A stretch of 64,000 nt of DNA from an uncultured Geobacteraceae bacterium (GTDB taxonomy: Bacteria; Desulfobacterota; Desulfuromonadia; Geobacterales; Pseudopelobacteraceae): the NCBI GenBank assembly GCA_903875605.1, contig CAIQWT010000053.1, positions 1 to 64,000 on the forward strand, in the 5' to 3' direction. The notes below the pieces were generated by a model. That model did not search any database. It was not told the DNA's origin and saw nothing but the letters and a program-made list of their open reading frames with translations. Below, in pieces: positions 39,278 to 57,216 of the stretch. Positions within the stretch are counted from its first letter, which is position 1, and each line of letters starts with the position of its first letter. Made by a program: the position numbers and the translations under genes.

Positions 39278-41362
39278 CTATTTCGGCGCCAGATAACCGA
39301 TACGGATCCCGCCCCAGTGTTTGTTATTTATTACAAGAGGTTTTGACATATCATTTAAAATTTCACCGGTGTCACGTCGATAGGTCTGCAGGAGGTAACC
39401 ACTAGTATTTCTGGCACAGCGGATACCGGTCTTGTCATCAAAGATGCGTTTGGTGCGGTTATGGTTTTTGTCTGTTTCAGGATTGCCGGTCAGAGGCTTG
39501 GAAAATCGTAGATTGTGACACGGGACATACCCATTGTTGTCAACGCAAATAGCGTAGAATATTTTGCTGTCTCGATTAACAATCAATTCCTGAAGGGGAG
39601 AAATAATCCTGTCAAAGAACACATCAAAGCGGGTTGTATACTTTTGCGGAGTGGTATTAGGAACCGGTACATAGCTCCTGTCAAACAGGTTTTCAATCGT
39701 AATAGTCCGGTCTTTGAGGGCCTTTTCAATCGCATCGAGGACAAGAGATTCTACCTCGCGGATGTAAGACTTTACCGTGTCATGGTAATTACCAACTGAA
39801 AATTTCCCGACGGAGCTGTAAATCTGTTCAACTACGTCTGCGAAAGTCGCAAATCCTTCGCTGGTTCTCTGCATCATTGTATTTGTTTCTTCAGCGCTAT
39901 GGGAAACAAGGCGGATCATCTCTGAAATATGATTTGTCGTTGCATTTTGTTCTTCTGAAGCGGTAGCGATCTGCTCGATCATAATGCGAGATTCGTTCGC
40001 ATGCATTTTGATGTTTTCCAGACTTCCTCGAGCCTCAGCAGCCTTGGCAAGGCCGGTCTGCACAAGAACACTTTCGGTCCCGATCATATCAGCGGCGCTG
40101 CGGCTGGTTTTCTGTATGTTTGCTACAACCCGTTTGATCTCGCGGGTTGAAGCGGTTGTTTTCTCGGCCAATCCCTTAACCTCGCTGGCTACTACAGCGA
40201 AGCCTTTGCCAGCGTCACCCGCACGCGCCGCTTCAATTGAAGCGTTAAGAGCCAATAAGTTGGTCTGGTCAGCAATATCTTCAATTAATACAACCATTTC
40301 ACCAATGTGAGCAGAAGAAGCCTCAAGTTCTCTGATAATCACCAGGGTGCTGTTCACGCTTGCACTGATTTGCTGCATACAGTTCCAGGTTTCTTCCACA
40401 ACTTCCATACCGCTGCTGGCGGCGCTGTCTACTGCACTTGAGAGAGCCGCCGCGCGGTGGGTGTTCTCGGTAACCTCATGAATAGTCTGTGCCATCTCCT
40501 CGGAAGATGCAGCAACAGTAAACGCCTGATCCTTCTGATCCTGAGTCATTTTTTGTGTCCGCTCAGTGCCGGCTGCTAACTCGCAGACATTAGTTCCAAT
40601 AAGGCAGGTTTGTGTGTATAGATCTGAAAAAGTGCTGCGGATCTTTTCCGTGAGGTTATTAACTTCATCACCCAGTCTGCCAATTTCACAGGTTGTTCGA
40701 ATTTGAAGAATTTTGGTCAGATCACCTTCACTTCCGGCCAGATCGCCGAGCTGCCTGTAAAGTTCAGTGATCTGCTGTACTACGGTACGGTTGAAAAAAA
40801 CATAGAGTGTTCCCAGCATTGCAAAAAAGAAAAAAGCTCCGACAACTGACATGATAAGCGTCAGATGCAAGGCGGAAGTGAATCCGGCCTCCAGGGAGGT
40901 AGTCATGATAACACCACCCAGATATTTTGCACTGCTTTTGTGGCAGCCACGGCAGCGCTCCTCATTTGCCAACGGGATAGCAAGATCAAGGAAACGCTTT
41001 CCACCTTTACTGGCGGACAATTCCGTCGGTACGCCGGAGGCGATTGCTGAACGCATTTCCTCACTTACCGAAACACTTCCCCACTCTTTCCCATCGCTGT
41101 TATACAGCTGTATTCCTGTGACTCCATCCGCCGTTTTAATCCCGGCAACGTACCCCCCGAAATCCTTCATATCACCCTTGGTCATCTGGTTAAGAATGTC
41201 ATGGGTCACAGTAGAAGCCAGTAGCCTGGCATTTTTTCTCTGCAGATCAATGGTGGCGGTATATTCAAGATATATTGAGAGTATTCCAAGGCCTGAGAAG
41301 CCAATGAAAAGTGTTGCAGCAATAATCAGGATAATCTTGCGTGTTAGGCTTGATTTGAACAT
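39278..41362 (-). CDS. Methyl-accepting chemotaxis protein with periplasmic c-type heme motif and C-terminal sensor domain
   Basis: 694 residues from the ATG at 41362 (AGAAGGTG seven bases upstream); the track GTG at 41371 lies inside that site. Membrane helix 1 ([19 protein letters not shown]), a periplasmic domain of about 130 residues with one CXXCH motif (CRGCH near residue 137), membrane helix 2 ([24 protein letters not shown]), and a HAMP-like linker. The signalling domain has the canonical hairpin [33 protein letters not shown]. The last 150 residues are an additional cytoplasmic sensor-like domain ([40 protein letters not shown]). Heme-PAS MCPs are known from Geobacter, where the heme senses redox or ligands. 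No che genes are adjacent. Confidence 0.92.
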
Positions 41363-41602
41363 GACGGACACCTTCTGATGGAGTATTTACGGATTTGAGA
41401 TTTTTTATTCTATATCATGAAAGACGATTATACAAACAGTTTGTCTGTATATAAAACCGTGTTAGTTGCTAACCCACTGCTATAAATAGAAAAAATATTA
41501 TCGATAAAACGGGGATTTAATGCGGTGTACGAGAAGTTATTCCGCAGTTCTTTATTTTAGATGACACTGCAGAGCGTGGGGAATCAGCTGTCGTTTGATA
41601 AA

Positions 41603-43653: not shown

Positions 43654-44010
43654 ATGGATAAGGAAAAACTGGAGTATTTTAAAGGCATACTGAATGACGA
43701 AATGAAAGCGCTTCAAGGTGAGGCCGGCAAGACAGTAACGGAGATGACGACGGATGCCCTGAGTTTTCCTGACCCTACTGATCGTGCTACTCAGGAATCA
43801 GATCGCAATTTTGAGTTGCGTATCAGAGACCGTGAGAGAAAGCTTATCAACAAAATAAAAGATGCACTCGACCGTATAGATTCAAAAGAGTTCGGTATTT
43901 GTGACGATTGCGGAGAAGAAATCGGCGAGGCTCGCCTTAAGGCCAGACCTGTAACCACACAGTGTATCGACTGCAAAATGGCTGCTGAAGAAAAGGAACG
44001 CCGAATTTAA
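43654..44010 (+). CDS. dksA: DksA-type RNA polymerase-binding transcription factor
   Basis: 118 residues from the ATG at 43654 (TAGGGAGCCGGCT upstream); the track start at 43594 precedes this site. A coiled coil carries the functional tip motif DxxDxA as DPTDRATQES near residues 39-48, and a C-terminal zinc ribbon has C-x2-C and C-x2-C (CDDCGEEIGEARLKARPVTTQCIDC). The acidic tip reaches the polymerase secondary channel and, with ppGpp, reprogrammes rRNA and amino-acid promoters. All four zinc cysteines are present. It is upstream of and co-directional with the histidine kinase gene; the gap is 40 bases. Confidence 0.94.
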   Translation: MDKEKLEYFKGILNDEMKALQGEAGKTVTEMTTDALSFPDPTDRATQESDRNFELRIRDRERKLINKIKDALDRIDSKEFGICDDCGEEIGEARLKARPVTTQCIDCKMAAEEKERRI

Positions 44011-44050
44011 ATTTACTTATTATATGGGTACAGCGGTTCCAGGATTACTC

Positions 44051-45418
44051 ATGGATATTGACAAATCTCCACATTCCATCGAAACCGACAATCGTCTGGC
44101 TGAATTGACGCTTCTATATCAGTTCAGTAATACGATGCTTTCTACTATACGCCTCAATAAATTAACGCATCTTATCCTTACGGCAATTACCATGCCGTCA
44201 TCCAACCTATTTGAACGTGCCGTTCTATTTCTACGTAACGAAAAAACAAACGTCCTGCAGGGAATGCTGTCAGTAACCCGACTTAAGTCTGATGATTTGC
44301 AGATAGTCGGTGGCCAGGATGTTCTCGGAAGCCGCTGGGATATAAGTGATGAGACAATATCACGGCAGCGGTCTGAAGAGTTCTGTATGCTTGTACGTCT
44401 GACACGTATAGAAATTGATAAAGGCTGCCCGCTAATAAACAAAATTGTATACGGTCGCAGTCCAGGGCGCTCCGATGATACCGAATGTCATCAGTGCACA
44501 TCCTGTCATTTTATCAGGCCACTCTGTAACGGGATCTTTGCTGCTGTGCCACTGGTTGCCCGCGAAACAACAATTGGTATGATTGTTGTCGATAACCCCG
44601 ATTCTGCCTGCGAAATATCCGGCAGTGCCCTGCATTTTCTCCAGCTTTTCGGCAACCAGGCGGGTATGGCTATAGAAAATTCCATGTTGTATAATCGTAT
44701 CGAAGATGCTCATCTGAATCTTAAGGATGCCCAGGAACGCCTGTTGCACGGAGAGCGCCTGGCGGCAATCGGCGAGATGGTCGCAAGCCTGGCTCACGAG
44801 CTGAAAAACCCGCTTATCGTCATTGGAGGTTTTGCCGGACGACTTATCAAATCACTATCATCTTCGACGCGTGAATATAACTATGCCGAAACCATTTTTT
44901 CTGAAGTCAGCAGGCTTGAAAAAATGCTGGCTGAAATTTTGGCATTTTCGCGTAAGCCGACCATCTGCTTCACTGCCTGCGATCTGGAGGATATCGTCCA
45001 GGATTGCCTTTCATGCTGTACTACCACTTTTGAAGACCACAATATCAAGGTGTTATTGAGCGCTGATGATCGCCCTTGGGTAGTTATGGGTGACTCTCAC
45101 CAGCTGAAGCAGGTGTTTCTCAATCTGATATTGAACGCCTGTGACGTCATGCCGGAAGGTGGGCGGTTGACTCTGACGCTCAAAAAAGTTCTTAAGGATA
45201 AAAAAACAGTAACCGTAACATGTGTGGATACTGGAGGGGGTATCGCGAAAGAAATACTTCCCAAAATATTCAATCCTTTTTTTACTACGAAACATCATGG
45301 AACCGGCCTTGGACTTGCTATTGTGAATCGGATCATTCTTAATCACTTAGGATCTATAGAAGTCTGTAATACCGGCAGTGGCGCTGCTTTCACACTGACA
45401 ATGCCGCTGGCAGAATGA
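44051..45418 (+). CDS. Cytoplasmic GAF-domain sensor histidine kinase with cysteine cluster
   Basis: 455 residues from the ATG at 44051 (CAGGA seven bases upstream); the track ATG at 44024 lacks a site. No signal peptide or membrane helix. A GAF domain (about 15-215) contains an inserted cysteine-rich loop with C-x2-C-x2-C (ECHQCTSCHF, Cys 146, 149, 152) plus flanking Cys, likely a metal or Fe-S site. The HisKA H-box VASLAHELKNPLIVIGGFA has the phospho-His near 249. The HATPase has LNLILNACDVMPEGG (N), VDTGGGIAKEI (G1), FNPFFTTKHHGTGLGLAIVNRI (F/G2). All catalytic boxes are intact. No response regulator is adjacent, so the partner lies elsewhere. Redox or oxygen sensing is a reasonable inference. 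Confidence 0.9.
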   Translation: MDIDKSPHSIETDNRLAELTLLYQFSNTMLSTIRLNKLTHLILTAITMPSSNLFERAVLFLRNEKTNVLQGMLSVTRLKSDDLQIVGGQDVLGSRWDISDETISRQRSEEFCMLVRLTRIEIDKGCPLINKIVYGRSPGRSDDTECHQCTSCHFIRPLCNGIFAAVPLVARETTIGMIVVDNPDSACEISGSALHFLQLFGNQAGMAIENSMLYNRIEDAHLNLKDAQERLLHGERLAAIGEMVASLAHELKNPLIVIGGFAGRLIKSLSSSTREYNYAETIFSEVSRLEKMLAEILAFSRKPTICFTACDLEDIVQDCLSCCTTTFEDHNIKVLLSADDRPWVVMGDSHQLKQVFLNLILNACDVMPEGGRLTLTLKKVLKDKKTVTVTCVDTGGGIAKEILPKIFNPFFTTKHHGTGLGLAIVNRIILNHLGSIEVCNTGSGAAFTLTMPLAE

Positions 45419-45578: not shown

Positions 45579-47507
45579 ATGCTGAGTAAACGGCGTTTTA
45601 TAATTTTTGTCTCCGATACTGTGCTAATAGGAGTTGCGCTACTCCTGGCATTTCTGCTGCGGTATGATTTTTCTATTCCGCAGGATCAGCGGGCGCTTTT
45701 TTGGGAATGCCTGCTGGTAGTCTTGATCTTTAAGCCGATGGTTTTTGCGATGACCGGTTTTTACAACAGCCTTTGGCGCTATGCTTCGGTTCAGGATGCG
45801 CTGCAAATAGTTAAAGGCGTATTCCTGTCTTCATTTGTGGTTATAGCCGCGGTATTTTTTCTACAACAATTTACTCCGCTCCCCCGATCCATATTTGCCC
45901 TCGACTCGATACTGCTCTTTATTATGTTGGCGTCCAGCCGTCTTGTGTGGCGCGTCTGCCGGGAAACTTACATTGTCAGCAAGAACGTTTCAGGGCCTCT
46001 TACGCTGATTGTTGGTGCCGGAGAAGCGGGAAGTCTGCTGCTAAAAGAAATACGACGTCAGTCCGGGGCATCTTACCGGGTGATTGGTTATGTTGATGAT
46101 GACCCTGAAAAAAAGGGGATGAAGCTGCACGGCATTCCGGTGCTGGGTGGGGTAAAGCAGCTTAATAAACTGATCCTCACCAATGAAGTTGAAGAGGTTA
46201 TCATCGCCATGCCTTCGGCTGACGGGAAAACTATCAAGGACATCATAAATTCCTGCAAAAACGCCGACGTGATTTTTAAAACGCTTCCCGGCATCAGTGA
46301 TTTGATAGACGGAACTCTGACTATATCCCAAATCAAGAAAGTTCAGATTGAAGATCTTCTGGGGCGTGAGCCGGTAGATTTGGATCGTGACTTGATCGGT
46401 GCCTTTCTGACAGGTAAGCGCGTGCTAGTCAGTGGCGCTGCAGGCAGCATCGGCAGTGAAATCTGCCGTCAGGTCGCCCTGTTTAAACCGGCGAAGCTGA
46501 TCTTGCTGGATCAGGCCGAAACGCCCCTTTACGAGATAGAAAAGGAGCTTGTAAACCGCTTCCCAGAAATACGCATGCTGGCATTAATGGCTGATGTCCG
46601 CGACCGTGAAAACATACTGCAGCTCTTTGATGAATTTACTCCCGAGGTCGTTTTTCATGCTGCCGCTTACAAGCATGTGCCGATGATGGAATATAACCCG
46701 ACTCAGGCGGTGCTTAACAATGTCTTCGGTTCGCGTAATATCGCCGATGCAGCCCACCAGTCCAAGGTGAGCAATATGGTTATGATCTCGACTGACAAAG
46801 CGGTTAACCCGACAAATGTTATGGGGGCTACCAAGAGATCAGCCGAAATTTATATCCAGGCGCTTTCACGAAATAGCAGTACCAGATTCACTACTGTCCG
46901 CTTTGGTAATGTGTTGGGGAGTAACGGCAGTGTCATCCCGTTGTTCAAACAACAGATAGCCGCCGGTGGACCGGTTACTGTGACCGACAAACGGGTCATC
47001 CGCTATTTTATGACTATCCCCGAGGCTACGCAGCTTGTGCTGGAGGCCGGTTGTCTTGGCAAAGGCTGTGAAATAATGGTGCTGGATATGGGTGAGCCTG
47101 TGCGGATTATTGATCTGGCTGAGGAATTAATCAGGCTGTCAGGCTTTACGCCATACGAAGACATAGATATTGTTATAACCGGTCTTCGCCCCGGTGAAAA
47201 GCTGTACGAAGAACTGCTGATAGAAGGTGAAGGCGTTATGCCGACTAGTCACGACAAGATCAAGGTGATGGCACCGGTTCATACCGATCTTACGTGTGTC
47301 TGCGATGAGTTTGAGCGGCTGTATGAGGCTGCCCGATCTAATAAAGTTCATGAGCTGATGGAATCCCTGAAACGACTGGTTCCCGAATTCAATCCTACTT
47401 ATAGTTTTAATGGTTCAGCTCCGTTAACATTTCAGCGCGTGCGGCCTGACCTGTTCCCTGCTCCGGCATATGGTTCAGCAAAGGTGGTTTTGCTGCGGAA
47501 GAGCTGA
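45579..47507 (+). CDS. Membrane nucleoside-diphosphate-sugar 4,6-dehydratase/epimerase, CapD/WbpM family
   Basis: 642 residues. Four N-terminal membrane helices (FVSDTVLIGVALLLAFLL onward), a first Rossmann-like domain (LTLIVGAGEAGSLLLKEI), and a C-terminal SDR domain with VLVSGAAGSIGSEICRQVA (NAD loop near 282), HAAAYKHVPMMEYNP and ISTDKAVNPTNVMGATKRSAE. The catalytic triad is Ser-Met-Lys: Met replaces the usual Tyr, as in WbpM-type UDP-GlcNAc C6 dehydratases that start synthesis of QuiNAc/FucNAc sugars. The length fits these membrane forms. It begins a group of surface-polysaccharide genes (Wzi, SLBB export, Wzz). A 160-base gap precedes it. Confidence 0.93.
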   Translation: MLSKRRFIIFVSDTVLIGVALLLAFLLRYDFSIPQDQRALFWECLLVVLIFKPMVFAMTGFYNSLWRYASVQDALQIVKGVFLSSFVVIAAVFFLQQFTPLPRSIFALDSILLFIMLASSRLVWRVCRETYIVSKNVSGPLTLIVGAGEAGSLLLKEIRRQSGASYRVIGYVDDDPEKKGMKLHGIPVLGGVKQLNKLILTNEVEEVIIAMPSADGKTIKDIINSCKNADVIFKTLPGISDLIDGTLTISQIKKVQIEDLLGREPVDLDRDLIGAFLTGKRVLVSGAAGSIGSEICRQVALFKPAKLILLDQAETPLYEIEKELVNRFPEIRMLALMADVRDRENILQLFDEFTPEVVFHAAAYKHVPMMEYNPTQAVLNNVFGSRNIADAAHQSKVSNMVMISTDKAVNPTNVMGATKRSAEIYIQALSRNSSTRFTTVRFGNVLGSNGSVIPLFKQQIAAGGPVTVTDKRVIRYFMTIPEATQLVLEAGCLGKGCEIMVLDMGEPVRIIDLAEELIRLSGFTPYEDIDIVITGLRPGEKLYEELLIEGEGVMPTSHDKIKVMAPVHTDLTCVCDEFERLYEAARSNKVHELMESLKRLVPEFNPTYSFNGSAPLTFQRVRPDLFPAPAYGSAKVVLLRKS

Positions 47508-47601
47508 AAGCAATGACCCGAAACGCGGGATTTTAATTGGATGATGCATGTAAAGATATAAATAGTTACTCACCATCCAAAATATCGTCAACTGGTGAGG
47601 C

Positions 47602-49251
47602 ATGAAACAAAATAATTCAAAATTCAAAATTCAAAGATCAGTATATGTCTTATCTGTCTCCGCCTTGATTATTCTGCTGTTTGCCGCCGCACCGCTGCAT
47701 GCCCTTTCTTCAGCGAACATTCCGCTTGACAGCCCGTTGTACTCTTACCTTGAAAAGCTCGCCGGTTTCGGCCTGATAACCAGCGACATGAGCGGAATAA
47801 AGCCGTTCAATAAGGCCGAGGTTGCCCGCCTGCTGCTGGAGGCAGAGCAGAATCTTGTCGCAGGAAAGGTTACTAACACCGTTTTTGCCGCTGAACTGAT
47901 CAGGCAGGTTCGTTCTATGATTCCCCGCGAAGTTACATTACGGGAGAATCCTGAAAGAAAAGGGCCTCATCTTGACTATGATCCGCTGGCATCCTTGCGG
48001 CTACGTTCCCTTTGGTTAGATGGAGTACCGCGTAATTATCGGCGCGATGTTTACGATCCGGGTAACGACGGTGTTTTCGGTATCGGGTCTGGTCTTAGGC
48101 CGAAAAACCCGTATCCATCCGCAGCACACCAGCGAGGAACTGAAGGGACACCACTGCTTGAAAACAACAATGGTGTTATTCATGAAGCCGGTTTTAGCAG
48201 TGAACTCCGCTGGGGTTCAGAATGGTATCTGGGTGACCAGGTCGCCGGTCTGCTTGAACCTTCTGTTCTGGCCAGCGGGGACGACACCAGTGTTCGTCTC
48301 AACAGGGGTTATGTGAAGTGGGGGGGCGGAAGCGTAGAGCTCGAAGCCGGTAAGGATGAAAACTGGTTGGGGCAGGGTTACCGCGGTAATATCACTTTGA
48401 CGAACAATGCTGATAACTTTACCCAGGTCAAAATATCCAGCCCCGAACCGTTTGACGTGAAGTACCTCGGAACCATGAAATATGCGCTCATTATGTCCCG
48501 TTTCGAGACTACAACTATCGATGGATCATTACGTCAGCCATGGTTCTATGCTGTTAAGCTATCAATTAAACCTCTTGAAAATCTGGAGGTCGGTTTTAAT
48601 CTGGGGCGACAGGTTGGCGGGCCGGGGGTTAACAACAGTTTCGGTGATACTCTTCGCGGATTAATCGGCGGAACCAGTGCTGATAATTCCAACGGTCTTG
48701 CTGGGTTCGAAGCCCGCTATCGCCTGCCGTGGCTGCGCAATTCTGAAATATACGGTGAACTATCAGGAGAGGATACCGCGCTGTTCTGGCCGATTGTTGA
48801 GAGTTATGTTGCCGGTCTGTATCTGCCTCGCCTGACGGATGATGGCAGGAACGATCTCCGCTTTGAATTTTTTCAGGGGAATCAAATTCTTTACACCCAC
48901 GGCACCTTTCCGGGTGGGTATCTGTACAAAAATATGCCGATTGGTCATTCGCAAGGCGGAGCAACACAGGACTTTTTCTTCCGCGGCAGCCACTGGTTCA
49001 ATGTGCGTAATAATGTTGCTTTGGAATATATCTATACCAACCGTGGGATGGTCGGACGGATTCCGGTAGATGGGGTACCGCAGGCGATCGAGAGAAAACA
49101 CGCCGGACGGATATTCTGGAGTTTGCCGCTTTATGCTGATCTGGACGGCCAGTTGGGTTACGGGGTTGAGAAGATTACCAACCTGGACCTTAAAGATGGT
49201 CAGGATCGAACCAACCAGCTGCTGAAATTTGAGCTCCGGTACAAATATTGA
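47602..49251 (+). CDS. Capsule assembly Wzi family outer-membrane protein
   Basis: 549 residues with a signal peptide (ALIILLFAAAPLHALS). An N-terminal helical bundle (PLDSPLYSYLEKLAGFGLI) is followed by a large beta barrel with the Wzi-family segments GYVKWGGGSVELEAGKDENWLGQGYRGN and YGELSGEDT, ending FELRYKY with a terminal aromatic. Wzi is an outer-membrane lectin that attaches group 1 capsule to the cell surface; in related organisms this family occurs in exopolysaccharide loci generally. It sits between the dehydratase and the polysaccharide export protein. A GGTGAGG site lies close to the ATG. Confidence 0.88.
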   Translation: MKQNNSKFKIQRSVYVLSVSALIILLFAAAPLHALSSANIPLDSPLYSYLEKLAGFGLITSDMSGIKPFNKAEVARLLLEAEQNLVAGKVTNTVFAAELIRQVRSMIPREVTLRENPERKGPHLDYDPLASLRLRSLWLDGVPRNYRRDVYDPGNDGVFGIGSGLRPKNPYPSAAHQRGTEGTPLLENNNGVIHEAGFSSELRWGSEWYLGDQVAGLLEPSVLASGDDTSVRLNRGYVKWGGGSVELEAGKDENWLGQGYRGNITLTNNADNFTQVKISSPEPFDVKYLGTMKYALIMSRFETTTIDGSLRQPWFYAVKLSIKPLENLEVGFNLGRQVGGPGVNNSFGDTLRGLIGGTSADNSNGLAGFEARYRLPWLRNSEIYGELSGEDTALFWPIVESYVAGLYLPRLTDDGRNDLRFEFFQGNQILYTHGTFPGGYLYKNMPIGHSQGGATQDFFFRGSHWFNVRNNVALEYIYTNRGMVGRIPVDGVPQAIERKHAGRIFWSLPLYADLDGQLGYGVEKITNLDLKDGQDRTNQLLKFELRYKY

Positions 49252-49359
49252 GGGTTATCTTGTGGATGGCCGGAAATAAACACACAAAATGAGTTGGCTT
49301 TACATAATGCTTAAATTTGCTTACTATGCTCGGCTATTGAATTCGAGGGGGAAATAAAA

Positions 49360-51966
49360 TTGAATAATCGTATTTCGCTAAAACATCTGACAGCACATAT
49401 TCTTGTGCAGACAATGATTTTCTTTGTGATGCTTACTTCTGTTAGTGCAGCACAATTGGAAGAACCTTTTGCTGCTCCTGCCGATGCCCCTTCTGGGGTG
49501 GGGATACCAAAGGGTACGGCCGCTTCTGCCATCGGTGCAACTTTAACCCCGATTGGAGCGCCAGCAATTAATTCAGGTATATTTTCTGCCAATAAGCCAA
49601 GTGAAATACAAGCACCTGACGCCTCTCCGCTCTCACCTCTTTCCACAAAGTTGCTGTCTAATAAGGCGGGCACTCCAAAAAATAAGCCTACGCTTCAGGA
49701 GCCAGTGACTGATAAAAGTACACTTGACCCCTCTGTCATTGAGGCTGCCATGATGGCCTCTGGTAAAGATGCGGAAAAGACGCTCCCACAAAAGTTTCAA
49801 TATGGAAAGCTACTGCAGTTCGGCTACAGTTTCTTTCGCGCTGAAGTTGATCCTTTTGCAGCAATGAATGATATCCCGGTAGGGCCTGACTATCTGCTCG
49901 GCACAGGTGACCGGATAAACCTGACGGTATGGGGTAGTATAGACGGCTCTTATCAGCTGGAGGTAAACCGGAACGGCGAACTGGTTATACCCAAAGTTGG
50001 ACCGATCAAGGTTGCAGGTGTAAGCTTTGGCCAGCTTCCTCAGCTACTTACAGGTCAACTCTCTCGTATATTCCGCAATTATCAACTGAGTGTAACCATG
50101 GGCAAGTTGCGCATGATCAAGGTTTACGTTGTCGGAGATGTCAATTCGCCTGGTGATTACAATATCTCTTCCATGTCAACACTGCTGAATGCCCTTTCAG
50201 CTGCCGGTGGGCCGACTCGCAACGGCACACTCCGTTCTATTGCTATCAAGCGTGATGGTAAGCTTGTCGATACGGTCGATCTATATGAATTCTTTCTAAA
50301 AGGGGATAAAAGTCGGGACATCAGGCTGCAGCCTGGCGATACGGTTTTTGTTCCCACTATCGGCCCGGTGGCCGGGATTACCGGGAATGTTCGGCGTCCC
50401 GCCATTTTCGAGCTGAAAAACGAAAAAACACTCAAGGATCTCCTTGCGCTTGCTGATGGTATAGTGCCAACCGGCTATCTGCAGCGCCTGCAGATATCGC
50501 GGGTTGATGCCTACGAGAAAAAGAGCGTCACGGATGTAAATCTCGACCCCAAAACTGCCGGTAAAGATTTGGACACTCTTGCTACTGCTATCCCAATCAA
50601 AGATATGGATCTAGTAAAGATTTTCCCGATTGACAGCACTGTGCGCGGGTATGCCCGTTTATCCGGTTATGTCTTGCGGCCGGGAGATTACGCTGTAAAG
50701 CCGGGCATGACACTACGGGATCTGTTACCTCCAGACAATCTTCTGCCGGAATACCATCAGTCGGTCGGCAGCCTTATCCGGCTTGTCCCACCTGATCTTC
50801 ACCCCGAAGTTACCATGATTCACCCGGCCAATGCTGCCGCCGGTAAGCCGGGCTTCAACCTGGATGTTCAGGAATTTGACACCATCAGGATCTATTCCCG
50901 CTGGGAGATGGAAGAGATGCCGCGTGTGCGCATCAACGGCGATGTACAAAAGCCCGGTGAGTACAGATTGCTTGAGGGTATGACTGTGCGGGATCTGTTG
51001 TATACCGCCGGTAATGTCAAGATGACGGCTTTTCTGAAAAATGCCGAAATTGCCCGCATGAGACGCACCGGTGATAATGTTACCATGACGACAATGGTAA
51101 TAGATCTGGGACGCGCTCTTGACAAAGATCCAAAACATAACCTGCTGCTAGAGCCTTTTGATGAGCTTTCTGTTCGCCGGATCCCAAGCTGGGCAGAAGA
51201 AACCGAGCGTTATGTAACAATAAGTGGTGAGATTCTCTTTCCCGGCACCTATCCGATCATCAAAGGAGAACATCTTAGCGATATACTTCGTCGTGCCGGC
51301 GGCTTTACTGACAGATCCTACCTGCGCGGAGCAAAGCTGACCAGGCGTTCCGTAAGGGAGTTGCAGCAGAAACGGATGGATGAAGTTCTTGTAAGAGCTG
51401 AGCGTGATATTACACAAAAGCAGGCGACTGTAGCGGCGGCTGCTACGTCAAAAGAGGAGCTTGATGGAACAAAAGCTGCTCTGGATGCACTGCAGAAAAA
51501 TACGGAAAGGCTGAAAATTGCGAAGGCTGAAGGCCGCGTGGTTATACACCTCAATCAAGGGCAGGAATTAAAAGATAGCGAATATGATCTGCTGATGGAG
51601 GGGGGGGACACTTTTGATGTGCCGTCACGCCCCAGTGTCGTCAATATATTAGGTACGGTGTACAATCCGAGCTCCTTTGTGTATCTGCCTAACCGTTCGC
51701 TTTCAAGCTATCTGGATCTATCGGGGGGCACGACAATCGAAGCGGAAACGTCTGATATGTATGTTATTAGGGCCGATGGGTCGGTATTCAGTCGTCAGCA
51801 AACATTTTTTGGTGGATTCCTTTCGAGTCAGTTAGAGCCGGGTGATACACTGGTTGTGCCGCAAAAACTCGAGAAAACTGCCTGGATGAGGGAAATCAAG
51901 GATTGGACCCAGATTCTGGCTAATCTGGCAATTACGGCCGGCACCGTTATGCTCGGCTTGAGATAG
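49360..51966 (+). CDS. SLBB-domain polysaccharide export protein (Wza-like)
   Basis: 868 residues. The start is TTG behind GAGGGGG; it opens a signal peptide (ILVQTMIFFVMLTSVSAAQ), and no later start would keep it. Residues about 175-255 are the polysaccharide export domain (DYLLGTGDRINLTVWGSIDGSYQLEVNRNGEL). Several SLBB domains follow (VYVVGDVNSPGDYNISSMSTLLNALSAAGG, ARLSGYVLRPGDYAVKPGMTLRDLL, VRINGDVQKPGEYRLLEGMTVRDLL, VTISGEILFPGTYPIIKGEHLSDILRRAGG). A coiled coil lies near 680-725, and the C-terminus ends in a membrane-spanning helix (ILANLAITAGTVMLGLR) as in Wza-type translocons. It is twice the usual Wza length because of the extra SLBB units. No lipobox, unlike E. coli Wza. Confidence 0.92.
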   Translation: MNNRISLKHLTAHILVQTMIFFVMLTSVSAAQLEEPFAAPADAPSGVGIPKGTAASAIGATLTPIGAPAINSGIFSANKPSEIQAPDASPLSPLSTKLLSNKAGTPKNKPTLQEPVTDKSTLDPSVIEAAMMASGKDAEKTLPQKFQYGKLLQFGYSFFRAEVDPFAAMNDIPVGPDYLLGTGDRINLTVWGSIDGSYQLEVNRNGELVIPKVGPIKVAGVSFGQLPQLLTGQLSRIFRNYQLSVTMGKLRMIKVYVVGDVNSPGDYNISSMSTLLNALSAAGGPTRNGTLRSIAIKRDGKLVDTVDLYEFFLKGDKSRDIRLQPGDTVFVPTIGPVAGITGNVRRPAIFELKNEKTLKDLLALADGIVPTGYLQRLQISRVDAYEKKSVTDVNLDPKTAGKDLDTLATAIPIKDMDLVKIFPIDSTVRGYARLSGYVLRPGDYAVKPGMTLRDLLPPDNLLPEYHQSVGSLIRLVPPDLHPEVTMIHPANAAAGKPGFNLDVQEFDTIRIYSRWEMEEMPRVRINGDVQKPGEYRLLEGMTVRDLLYTAGNVKMTAFLKNAEIARMRRTGDNVTMTTMVIDLGRALDKDPKHNLLLEPFDELSVRRIPSWAEETERYVTISGEILFPGTYPIIKGEHLSDILRRAGGFTDRSYLRGAKLTRRSVRELQQKRMDEVLVRAERDITQKQATVAAAATSKEELDGTKAALDALQKNTERLKIAKAEGRVVIHLNQGQELKDSEYDLLMEGGDTFDVPSRPSVVNILGTVYNPSSFVYLPNRSLSSYLDLSGGTTIEAETSDMYVIRADGSVFSRQQTFFGGFLSSQLEPGDTLVVPQKLEKTAWMREIKDWTQILANLAITAGTVMLGLR

Positions 51967-51974
51967 GGGGGGAT

Positions 51975-53183
51975 ATGAACGAACAACAAACTATTCGCCC
52001 TGAGATTGAAGCTGAGGAAGAGATTAACCTGCTGGAGTTGTTACGGGTGGTCGTACGTAACCTGCCGTTGATCGTCAAGATCACTACCGCTGCAGTGGTC
52101 CTCTCTGTGCTGTATTCATTGACGCTGAAAAACGTCTACACAGCCAGGGCTACGCTGCTGCCGCCGCAAAAGGATTCCGGCGGCGGTGCATCGGCACTGC
52201 TTGCTTCTATGGGTGGCGGATTGGCCGGTCTGGCCGGAGGACTAGGCGGCTCAGCCGACCTGTATTTGGGACTCCTGAAAAGCCGCACGGTTACCGATGC
52301 CGTAATTAAACGGCTTGATCTGCACACGGAATTTAAATCAAAAAATGTCGATTCAACAAGAACAACAGTACAAAATCTGGTCAAGTTTCAGGCTGGTAAG
52401 GATGGTATTATCACTATCACCGCCGATTACAAGGATCCGGTTAAGGCGGCTCTTCTTGCCAATACTTTCATAGATGAACTGCAGAAAAAAAGCATGCAGC
52501 TTAATCTGACCAAAGCAAGCACGGAACGGAGTTTTCTTGAAAAGCGACTGGTAGTGGTAAAGCAGGATTTGAAGGTCGCCGAAGAGGATATGAAGAGCTT
52601 TCAGGAAAAAAACAAAACTATCAAGGCAGACAGTCAGGCCGCGGCAGCCATCGAAGGTATAGCCCGATTACGGGCGGAGGTTGTCACTAAAGAGGTCCAG
52701 TTGGCAGCACTGCGCAATTCCATGACGGATGAGAGCACTGAAGTAAGAACGCTGCTGGCGGGAATAACAAAACTTAAAAGCCAATTGCACTCCATGAGCG
52801 GTACCGGTGATGGTGGAGGAGTTATTCCATCCGTCGGTAATGCCCCTTCTATCGGCGTCGAGTATGTGCGTCGATTACGTGAATTAAAGACCCAGGAAGC
52901 GCTGTTTGAACAGCTTACCAAACAGTTTGAGATGGCAAAAATCAGTGAAGCCCGGGATTCATCCTCGCTGCAGGTACTCGATGAAGCGGTGCCGCCTCTC
53001 TACAAAAGCAAGCCAAAACGGTCGTTGGTCGTGATTCTTTCTGCAGTAACGGCTTTTTTCTGCTCTATTTTTCTGGTGTTCATCAAAGAGTATCTGGCCA
53101 AGCTGTCACCTGAAGACAGTGCCATCATGAACGAGATGAAGGGCACTTTAAAGGGAATGCTGCGACTGCGAAGATCGGCATAA
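51975..53183 (+). CDS. Polysaccharide chain-length determinant, Wzz/GNVR family
   Basis: 402 residues. Membrane helix 1 (LIVKITTAAVVLSVLYSLTL), a periplasmic domain with predicted coiled coils (LEKRLVVVKQDLKVAEEDMKSFQEKN) and the GNVR-type C-terminal motif with AVPPLYKSKPKRSLVVIL leading into membrane helix 2 (FFCSIFLVFIKEYL). A glycine-rich segment (MGGGLAGLAGGLGGSADLYLGLLKSRTV) is typical of O-antigen/EPS copolymerases. No cytoplasmic tyrosine kinase domain is attached. It begins eight bases after the export protein stop, so the two form one operon. Confidence 0.93.
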   Translation: MNEQQTIRPEIEAEEEINLLELLRVVVRNLPLIVKITTAAVVLSVLYSLTLKNVYTARATLLPPQKDSGGGASALLASMGGGLAGLAGGLGGSADLYLGLLKSRTVTDAVIKRLDLHTEFKSKNVDSTRTTVQNLVKFQAGKDGIITITADYKDPVKAALLANTFIDELQKKSMQLNLTKASTERSFLEKRLVVVKQDLKVAEEDMKSFQEKNKTIKADSQAAAAIEGIARLRAEVVTKEVQLAALRNSMTDESTEVRTLLAGITKLKSQLHSMSGTGDGGGVIPSVGNAPSIGVEYVRRLRELKTQEALFEQLTKQFEMAKISEARDSSSLQVLDEAVPPLYKSKPKRSLVVILSAVTAFFCSIFLVFIKEYLAKLSPEDSAIMNEMKGTLKGMLRLRRSA

Positions 53184-53187
53184 CAGT

Positions 53188-53565
53188 GTGACTGACCGAA
53201 AACCCTTCAATACACCGTTAATCTGGCTGTTTCTCTGTGCCGGCCTGACTATTTTTATCCTCTGGCTGGCGCTGATGCCTGCCACCTCGGCACCAACGGG
53301 TCTGGGATGGGATAAATTGAATCATGCCGGTGCAATGGCCGTTGTCACCGGTTTTGCGTATCTGGCCTTTCGACCGCGCGCGCAGGCTGCCACAGCTGCG
53401 TTTTGGTACGGATCGCTTCTCGGTATTCTGATCGAAATACTGCAGGGTACTCTAACGACCACCAGATTTGCAGAGTGGAGTGATGTTGTCGCCGACCTGA
53501 TCGGGGCCGGCTTTGCCCTGATTGTGATAAAAATATACCAACGCAGAACAGCACCAACACGGTGA
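53188..53565 (+). CDS. VanZ-like family membrane protein
   Basis: 125 residues with four hydrophobic segments: LIWLFLCAGLTIFILWLALMP, KLNHAGAMAVVTGFAYLAF, AAFWYGSLLGILIEILQGTL and VVADLIGAGFALIVIKIY. The DKxxHAxAF-like KLNHAGA and the E-x-x-Q-x-x-x-x-x-R pattern EILQGTLTTTRFAEWSDVVAD identify VanZ-like proteins. They are often found in exopolysaccharide and exosortase loci; function not established. GTG start four bases after the Wzz stop, so it belongs to that operon. Confidence 0.88.
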   Translation: MTDRKPFNTPLIWLFLCAGLTIFILWLALMPATSAPTGLGWDKLNHAGAMAVVTGFAYLAFRPRAQAATAAFWYGSLLGILIEILQGTLTTTRFAEWSDVVADLIGAGFALIVIKIYQRRTAPTR

Positions 53566-55219: not shown

Positions 55220-56845
55220 GTGGATCGGGAGTGTTGCTGGTACAGGGACGTTATTGAACAGGCCGATTGCCCGAATATCAGTGAGGGCGAAGAGGAACTG
55301 CTTATTTTAAAACATCAGCGCTTGACTGAAAAGTGCTGTGACTGCCCTGTCTTCATTGAGAGCCTGGCCCGGTTGCATGACTCCGCCAACCCATTGGCAA
55401 CAATTCTCTCCGAAGTATTGAGTGAAAACTGTCGGCAGAAAAACCAGATTCAGTCACTGGTTAGTTTTCTCGATAGCAAAACCCTTGAAATTCGTTTTTT
55501 ACACGAACTCGGCTCTATTCTGCAAAGTTCGGTCGATCTGGATGAAGTGCTTTCTGTGGCACTGACCGCCATTACTGCCGGTAAGGGCTTCGGCATGAAC
55601 CGTGCCTTCCTGCTTTTGTGTGATCGCGAGGAGGGTGTCCTTAAAGGCTATATAGGGATCGGTCCACGTAACATGGAGGAAGCCAGTCAGGTCTGGGATG
55701 AAATTATCCAGAACGATATGGATCTGCAGACTCTGGCTCAGAACTTCCGTCTGAACAAGCTCTCCTCAGAACGAGCAAAGTTTCAGGATGTACTGGAACA
55801 GTTAACAATTCCGCTTACCGATAAAAATCATATAGTCATCAAAGCGCTAGACGGGAAACGTCCGATAATGGTCGAGGGTGCTTACCAGCGAACGGATGTC
55901 CCATCTGAACTGTCTCGCCTACTGGGTGTTGAAACCTTTCTGCTGCTGCCGCTTGTTTCGCGCAATCGCTGTATCGGTATTATTATTGCCGATAACTGCA
56001 TCACTCACCGAAGCATAACTGAAGAGGATATGCGTTCGCTCGAAACATTCGGTTTTCCGGTTGCATTTGCAATTGAGCGCGCATCTCTCTACGACAAGCT
56101 GCATGTTGAACTTAATCGCGTTACCGAAGCGGGAAGAAAGCTGAAAGAGCAGCAGGAGTTAATAGTCCGGATGGAGAATATGGCTCTGGTCGGGCGCATT
56201 ACATCCAGTATCGCTCATTCAGTGCGCAACCCTTTGATGGTTATCGGAGGATTTGCCCGTTCGATGCTGAAAAACAGTCCCGTGTCCGATCCCAAGCGGA
56301 GTTTCATCGAGTCAATTGTTGCGGAAACTCGGCAGCTCGAAGGCGTGCTTGATGAAATTCTCAACTATTCCGATTCATTATATCCTACTCGCGATTTCTG
56401 GGATGTAAACCAGTTGATTGAAGGAGCTTTGCGCGATACTGCGGACATTATGAAATCACTAGGGTATGCCACCGGCTATACTCCCGGCCATGCCATGCTC
56501 CCGGTATATATAGACTTCAAACAGCTCTCTTACTGTCTTCGGACTGTGCTGCAAAACGATATCAATGGTACCGGCTCAGACCGATCAATTGCTATCAGTT
56601 CCCAGAGCGGTGAAAATTGTGTCATCCTCAGGATTGAGGATCACAGCCGTCACACATCACAGATTGAGCTTGACCACCTGCTGATACCCTTTTCTGAATC
56701 TCGAGACCTTGGAACCGGCCTCGGCCTCGCGCTATGTAAAACAATGCTTGAAAAGCAGGGGATTCCTTTTGTTGCTCAGGCCGGTCTCATTGAAGGAATC
56801 CTTTATACAATCACACTTCCCACCTGTAAGGAGGAACAGCCATGA
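55220..56845 (+). CDS. GAF-domain sensor histidine kinase with Cys-rich N-terminus and degenerate ATP lid
   Basis: 541 residues; GTG start behind GAAGGGG. The N-terminal 45 residues hold six cysteines (5, 6, 17, 39, 40, 42; ECCW, ADCPN, EKCCDCP), a possible metal or Fe-S site. A GAF domain follows (about 85-290; LHELGSILQSSVDLDEVLSVAL). The H-box ITSSIAHSVRNPLMVIGGFAR has the phospho-His near 333. The HATPase region keeps the F/G2 box (IPFSESRDLGTGLGLALCKTM) but the N-box reads LQNDINGT and the G1 box EDHSRHT, both far from consensus, so ATPase strength is doubtful. The response-regulator gene overlaps by four bases (ATGA), so this is a cognate pair. No membrane helix. Confidence 0.9.
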   Translation: MDRECCWYRDVIEQADCPNISEGEEELLILKHQRLTEKCCDCPVFIESLARLHDSANPLATILSEVLSENCRQKNQIQSLVSFLDSKTLEIRFLHELGSILQSSVDLDEVLSVALTAITAGKGFGMNRAFLLLCDREEGVLKGYIGIGPRNMEEASQVWDEIIQNDMDLQTLAQNFRLNKLSSERAKFQDVLEQLTIPLTDKNHIVIKALDGKRPIMVEGAYQRTDVPSELSRLLGVETFLLLPLVSRNRCIGIIIADNCITHRSITEEDMRSLETFGFPVAFAIERASLYDKLHVELNRVTEAGRKLKEQQELIVRMENMALVGRITSSIAHSVRNPLMVIGGFARSMLKNSPVSDPKRSFIESIVAETRQLEGVLDEILNYSDSLYPTRDFWDVNQLIEGALRDTADIMKSLGYATGYTPGHAMLPVYIDFKQLSYCLRTVLQNDINGTGSDRSIAISSQSGENCVILRIEDHSRHTSQIELDHLLIPFSESRDLGTGLGLALCKTMLEKQGIPFVAQAGLIEGILYTITLPTCKEEQP

Positions 56846-57216
56846 GTAGACTATTAGTCGTAGACGATGAAGCCAATATCCGGTTGCTTTACGCAGAAGA
56901 GTTGAAGGATGAAGGGTATGAGGTGGTGACGGCAGCCAGTAGCGCCGAGGCGTCTGAAAAACTGCAGGGTTGTACATTTGATCTGGCTATTCTGGATATC
57001 AAGCTGAAGAACGAAAGCGGCATTGAGCTGCTGCAGCGTCTGGTTAAGGAACGTCATGATATGCCTGTGATACTCTGCTCGGCATTTTCCTGTTACAAGG
57101 ACGATTTTTCAGCCTGGCTTGCAGATGGCTATGTGGTGAAGTCGGGTGATCTTACCGAGCTGAAACAGGAGATAGCCAGGGTGCTGGCCAAGAAGGCGCT
57201 TAAAGCCAGAGGATGA
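56842..57216 (+). CDS. Single-domain response regulator
   Basis: 124 residues, a receiver domain only: LLVVDDEANIRLL (acidic pocket), phospho-Asp52 in LAILDIKLKNESG, ILCSAFS (switch Ser) and YVVKSGDL (Lys). No output domain, so it acts as a phosphorelay intermediate or by binding a partner. AAGGAGGAACAGCC before the ATG is a strong site inside the kinase gene. Cognate to the kinase upstream; a bifunctional nucleotidyltransferase gene follows after 41 bases. Confidence 0.92.
   Translation: MSRLLVVDDEANIRLLYAEELKDEGYEVVTAASSAEASEKLQGCTFDLAILDIKLKNESGIELLQRLVKERHDMPVILCSAFSCYKDDFSAWLADGYVVKSGDLTELKQEIARVLAKKALKARG

Follow-up and report, generated by a model that had tools for sequence, protein, structure and literature searches.

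A histidine kinase gene beside dksA encodes a CxxCxxC string within a GAF domain, and the question that this locus raises is whether these cysteines, together with others nearby, form a sensory metal site. The window (the whole stretch of DNA that was analyzed, 64,000 nucleotides) comes from an organism whose lineage is anaerobic and lies close to Trichlorobacter, Oryzomonas, and Pelotalea. We lean, though not strongly, toward a four-cysteine metal site in the GAF domain, probably [4Fe-4S], that would control an orphan kinase as a redox or gas sensor.

A soluble GAF kinase encoded beside dksA

43654 to 44010, plus strand: dksA, whose C4 zinc-finger motif is intact; in practically all orthologous loci, it is the gene immediately upstream of the kinase
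44051 to 45418, plus strand: soluble sensor histidine kinase of 455 amino acids, with GAF (residues ~15 to 210), HisKA (241 to 302), and HATPase_c (347 to 454) domains

We used the ATG at 44051, 40 bp beyond the dksA stop at 44010, as the kinase start; AGGA lies 5' of it at Shine-Dalgarno distance, whereas the in-frame ATG at 44024 has no AGGA so placed. Pfam matches to the 455-residue protein come in the order GAF, HisKA, HATPase_c. The GAF match is weak, as is typical for this domain (PF01590, 28.8 bits in the genome scan; PF13492 also matches), and the NCBIfam matches all fall below their curated cut-offs and hit the kinase core common to many kinases. The HisKA phospho-acceptor, His249, is invariant. 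Because no 19-residue window exceeds a hydropathy of 1.73, compared with 2.56 for the membrane methyl-accepting chemotaxis protein (MCP) encoded nearby, we take the kinase to be soluble. It therefore has the makeup of a soluble GAF sensor histidine kinase (GAF, HisKA histidine, HATPase_c, and no membrane segment), and the earlier note's description of a cytoplasmic kinase with Cys-x2-Cys-x2-Cys in its GAF domain is borne out by the open reading frame, the exact string, and the Pfam match.

The orthologous loci represent the family to which the window belongs as well as further families of its order and class. The dksA-kinase pair passed the distance test in 103 of 106 loci, the other three being stop-to-stop open reading frames that run back into dksA. 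Outside the window's own family, elsewhere in the order and class, the orthologous kinase adjoins dksA too, and the window kinase belongs to this dksA-linked GAF kinase orthologue group of the Desulfuromonadia. Cotranscription of the kinase with dksA is probable. Scans for promoters and terminators gave nothing better than shuffled sequences, and no RNA element was found in the dksA-kinase region. When a cognate regulator was sought up to 4 kb downstream in the orthologous loci, three receiver-like hits appeared in three loci, none of them consistent. Since no receiver-domain gene consistently adjoins the kinase, we regard it as an orphan, whose response regulator would therefore be encoded elsewhere in the genome.

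In Salmonella, DksA is a thiol-based redox sensor (PMC4815678); a link between a thiol-sensing DksA and the kinase is suggestive and no more. That the kinase is linked to dksA suggests that, in these anaerobes, control by redox or gas is coupled to growth-rate control of transcription. Literature searches that combined Geobacter with DksA, GAF, and histidine kinase, or that used the locus tag GSU0094, returned no match. Directly downstream of the kinase, positions 45579 to 53565 hold capsule or exopolysaccharide genes (Polysacc_synt_2, Wzi, SLBB export, Wzz, VanZ-like).

Cysteines of the GAF loop and their putative cofactor

The GAF domain contains seven cysteines, at residues 112, 126, 146, 149, 152, 159, and 187. 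The string E145-C-H-Q-C-T-S-C-H153 is exact, with the codons of Cys146, Cys149, and Cys152 at 44486, 44495, and 44504, and the overall spacing is Cys126-x19-Cys146-x2-Cys149-x2-Cys152. An order-wide search found a kinase match in 139 of 141 genomes. The own-family alignment initially held 49 sequences, in which Cys126, Cys149, and Cys152 were present in all 49, Cys146 in 45, Cys112 in 41, and Cys159 in 31. Adding 79 named GTDB loci and removing duplicates gave 61 distinct own-family sequences (the cysteine clade), with the following counts:

44384 to 44386, plus strand: Cys112, a probable ligand; 52 of 61, otherwise Ser or Asn
44426 to 44428, plus strand: Cys126; 61 of 61
44486 to 44506, plus strand: CHQCTSC loop; Cys146 in 57 of 61, Cys149 and Cys152 each in 61 of 61
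44525 to 44527, plus strand: Cys159, probably no essential ligand; 34 of 61

Two further sequences (L154 and L157) read C-x2-C-x3-C, the last cysteine having moved by one residue. With these included, all 63 sequences that have Cys126 and Cys149 retain four or more of cysteines 112, 126, 146, 149, and 152, while the noncysteine positions of the loop (residues 134 to 160) show a mean pairwise identity of 31%. Judged from this alignment, four near-invariant cysteines in so variable a loop exceed what chance would give. Conservation of all the cysteines, which the earlier note had set as a check, thus holds for these five and fails for the remaining two: Cys187 drifts, and Cys159 is kept in 36 of 63 (~57%). 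Cys112 and Cys146 were never lost together among the 61, but with ~0.6 joint losses expected this is not significant, and complementarity between them is suggestive.

The last part of the string, CTSCH, fits the CxxCH motif, and the fold matches described below include the heme GAF domain of DosS and the bilin GAF domains of phytochromes, so that covalent heme c, or the heme or bilin attachment of a GAF gas sensor or photoreceptor, deserves mention. We find this hardly credible. His153 is kept in only 15 of 61 sequences and is elsewhere Gly, Asp, Arg, Ser, Thr, or other residues; His147 drifts as well, and the own-family alignment has no conserved histidine in the GAF loop. Heme c is not matured in the cytoplasm, where this kinase resides, and attachment of heme or bilin would leave the spacing of four cysteines unexplained. 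The protein is soluble and without the conserved periplasmic CxxCH of a c-type cytochrome or heme c sensor, and the unconserved His153 rules out a heme c site at CTSCH, as the earlier note had anticipated in calling the string a look-alike. A bilin site of the CBCR type was ruled out as well, since Cys-His pairs are not conserved.

In an anaerobe, the closest parallel to four near-invariant cysteines arranged as CxxCxxC plus a remote cysteine is a [4Fe-4S] site. This is a usual [4Fe-4S] spacing and not that of a zinc knuckle. The motif CX2CX2CX3CP is quoted for ferredoxins (PMC6949291). The points against a [4Fe-4S] reading are the replacement of Cys146 in 4 and of Cys112 in 9 of the 61 sequences, low model confidence across residues 141 to 160, and the kinases of L063 and the Geobacteraceae, which are without the triad.

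We computed AlphaFold2 models of the GAF domain alone and of the full kinase. The GAF model has a pTM of 0.82 and a mean pLDDT of 84, dropping to 69 to 79 across residues 141 to 160. The triad falls within a predicted coil and the beginning of a helix (pLDDT ~71 to 79), immediately ahead of GAF beta strand 163-170, and a predicted long helix (191-268) connects GAF and HisKA. Foldseek with the GAF model returned only generic GAF folds (MCP GAF 3oov, cAMP-bound Lcd1 GAF, NifA GAF, DosS heme GAF), phytochrome GAF domains also being among the matches, and no solved-structure relative is described as an Fe-S GAF.

We propose that the GAF domain would bind a metal cofactor, most likely [4Fe-4S], through Cys126 and Cys146-x2-Cys149-x2-Cys152, while Cys112 would supply a fifth thiol that is in part interchangeable. 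Such a cluster would be stable in a reduced, anoxic cytoplasm; O2, NO, or a redox change would damage or reduce it, the altered cluster would move the loop adjoining the GAF beta-sheet, and this movement could alter His249 autophosphorylation through the long GAF-HisKA helix. Metal binding, the type of cluster, the signal (O2, NO, redox, or iron), and the direction of the response are what we infer here.

Two other uses of the same cysteines have to be weighed, and we consider each improbable. Structural zinc on the four cysteines might stiffen the GAF loop while the domain senses something else, for example, a nucleotide: four invariant cysteines satisfy a zinc site, and GAF domains often bind cyclic nucleotides, the cAMP-bound Lcd1 domain being among the fold matches, but CxxCxxC with a remote cysteine is unusual for a zinc knuckle. 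Equally doubtful is a metal-free thiol-disulfide switch, in which oxidation would join Cys126 to the triad and change kinase activity. Cysteine sets in sensor proteins can act so, five cysteines are present of which one is partly replaceable, and the neighboring gene encodes DksA, a thiol-based sensor in Salmonella; a two-cysteine switch would nonetheless leave four near-invariant, CxxCxxC-spaced cysteines unexplained.

With at least four conserved sensor-domain cysteines, the kinase resembles Fe-S GAF/PAS sensor kinases of the AirS and NreB type. AirS (YhcS) of Staphylococcus aureus uses four cysteines to bind an N-terminal [2Fe-2S] cluster and is reactive toward O2, H2O2, and a nitrosating agent (PMC4601167). 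Both are kinases with a four-cysteine sensor region, the metal being only predicted here, and we liken them by cysteine set and not by kinase family: the Cys-x7-Cys-x-Cys-x17-Cys spacing of AirS is not that of the window kinase, and its genetic neighborhood also differs from one with dksA. The soluble kinase NreB of staphylococci binds an O2-labile [4Fe-4S] cluster by four cysteines (PMC4601167), but in a PAS domain and with nreB beside its regulator, whereas the window kinase is an orphan with a GAF domain. In VnfA and AnfA of Azotobacter, activity depends on conserved cysteines of the GAF domain, for which a [3Fe-4S] cluster has been proposed (PMC9542535); these proteins are sigma-54 activators rather than kinases. 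The GAF kinases chloroplast sensor kinase (CSK) and Hik2 carry [3Fe-4S] in the GAF domain (PMC6949291), with one confirmed cysteine ligand (C19), a high potential, and a plastoquinone signal, in contrast to the four-cysteine set here. Because cysteine-ligated clusters are already known in GAF proteins and sensor kinases (AirS, VnfA, and CSK, and NreB in PAS), the window site would not be a new category. Few GAF domains are known with such clusters, and in cultured relatives (Trichlorobacter, Oryzomonas, Pelotalea) the conserved spacing could be probed directly by Fe/S analysis.

A second cluster in the kinase core (Cys306, Cys310, Cys319, Cys323, and Cys364) was considered and rejected. Cys306 and Cys310 occur without the GAF cysteines: orthologues from elsewhere in the order have them in 37 of 40 and 40 of 40 cases, respectively. 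The remaining core cysteines drift in one genus. The core set is therefore not tied to the GAF site.

44966 to 44980, plus strand: Cys306-x3-Cys310, where HisKA meets HATPase_c and the catalytic domain starts; class-wide, ancestral, and independent of the GAF cysteines

Distribution of the site within and beyond the class

The triad is restricted to the window's own family: none of the 40 aligned orthologues from elsewhere in the order has it, nor does any of the 16 from elsewhere in the class, and it is missing from every Geobacteraceae orthologue. In the Geobacteraceae and other Desulfuromonadia, the dksA-linked kinase is usually a long form (GAF1-GAF2-kinase), orthologous by neighborhood and by GAF2-HisKA-HATPase_c alignment (~40 to 50% identity). 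It differs from the short, cysteine-bearing window kinase in having no loop cysteines and an extra N-terminal region (GAF where tested). Among four triad-less proteins scanned with Pfam, L072 and L084 have two GAF regions, L099 has an extended N terminus, and L110 is as short as the window protein, which we therefore equate with the C-terminal GAF and kinase of the long form.

On a tree computed without the cysteine columns, the cysteine-bearing sequences and L063 form one group (SH-aLRT 99, two label changes). L063 (genome G140) represents one genus of the own family in which the triad was lost and the kinase gene retained. The simplest reading of these sequences is that the site is a lineage trait of one family, with one gain, roughly coincident with loss of the first GAF domain, and one loss. 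Orthologues with and without the site would make a natural control pair for a GAF domain gaining a redox cofactor. That the GAF domain persists where the site is missing speaks against structural zinc.

A profile search of 297 genomes of the phylum found kinase homologues outside the class, most without loop cysteines. In the equivalent GAF loop, one family of 17 genomes, f32, reads QCILSRTVLEGR...RCERGCHLGSEVGCY, a C...C-x3-C-x7-C set whose three loop cysteines are present in 17 of 17 and whose first cysteine is present in 16 of 16 where readable.

L236, L238, L245-L251, L265-L281: dksA-linked GAF kinases of f32 with C...C-x3-C-x7-C

The first f32 cysteine aligns at Cys126 or one residue off, depending on the alignment, and dksA lies ~1 kb upstream in 5 of 9 f32 loci with flank, the fetched flank of the other 4 being shorter or barely that long. 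Family f95 (L232) shows a pattern akin to that of f32, and L243, L244, and L262 have a third pattern that is less complete. Because the intervening families have no such cysteines and the spacing differs, independent recruitment of the two four-cysteine sets would be the simpler reading, the alternative being a shared ancestral site that later diverged. A different four-cysteine set in the equivalent loop favors a function for the GAF-loop site, and the thiol switch leaves it unexplained. More tentatively, the GAF loop of DksA-linked kinases may be a hotspot where four-cysteine metal sites of different spacing (C-x19-C-x2-C-x2-C and C...C-x3-C-x7-C) arose independently in separate lineages of anaerobes; if so, these kinases would constitute a hitherto unrecognized set of Fe-S GAF sensors with a tie to DksA, the stringent-response factor.

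Other cysteine-bearing proteins of the genome

A paralogous GAF kinase with a cysteine-rich N terminus (ECC...ADC...KCCDC) is encoded at 55220 to 56845 (plus strand), overlapping a stand-alone receiver gene (56842 to 57216, plus strand), and in the majority of the order's genomes this paralogue is the second hit (~26% identity). Elsewhere in the same genome, a 724-residue PAS-GAF-kinase-receiver protein (L223, G000:C50:18678-19124) has CSCRVC in the equivalent GAF loop. Finally, the membrane chemotaxis receptor at 39278 to 41371 (minus strand) carries CRGCH (residue 140) within its sensor domain of the PF21563 class-40H type, likely a genuine periplasmic heme c site a few kilobases from the false one of the kinase.
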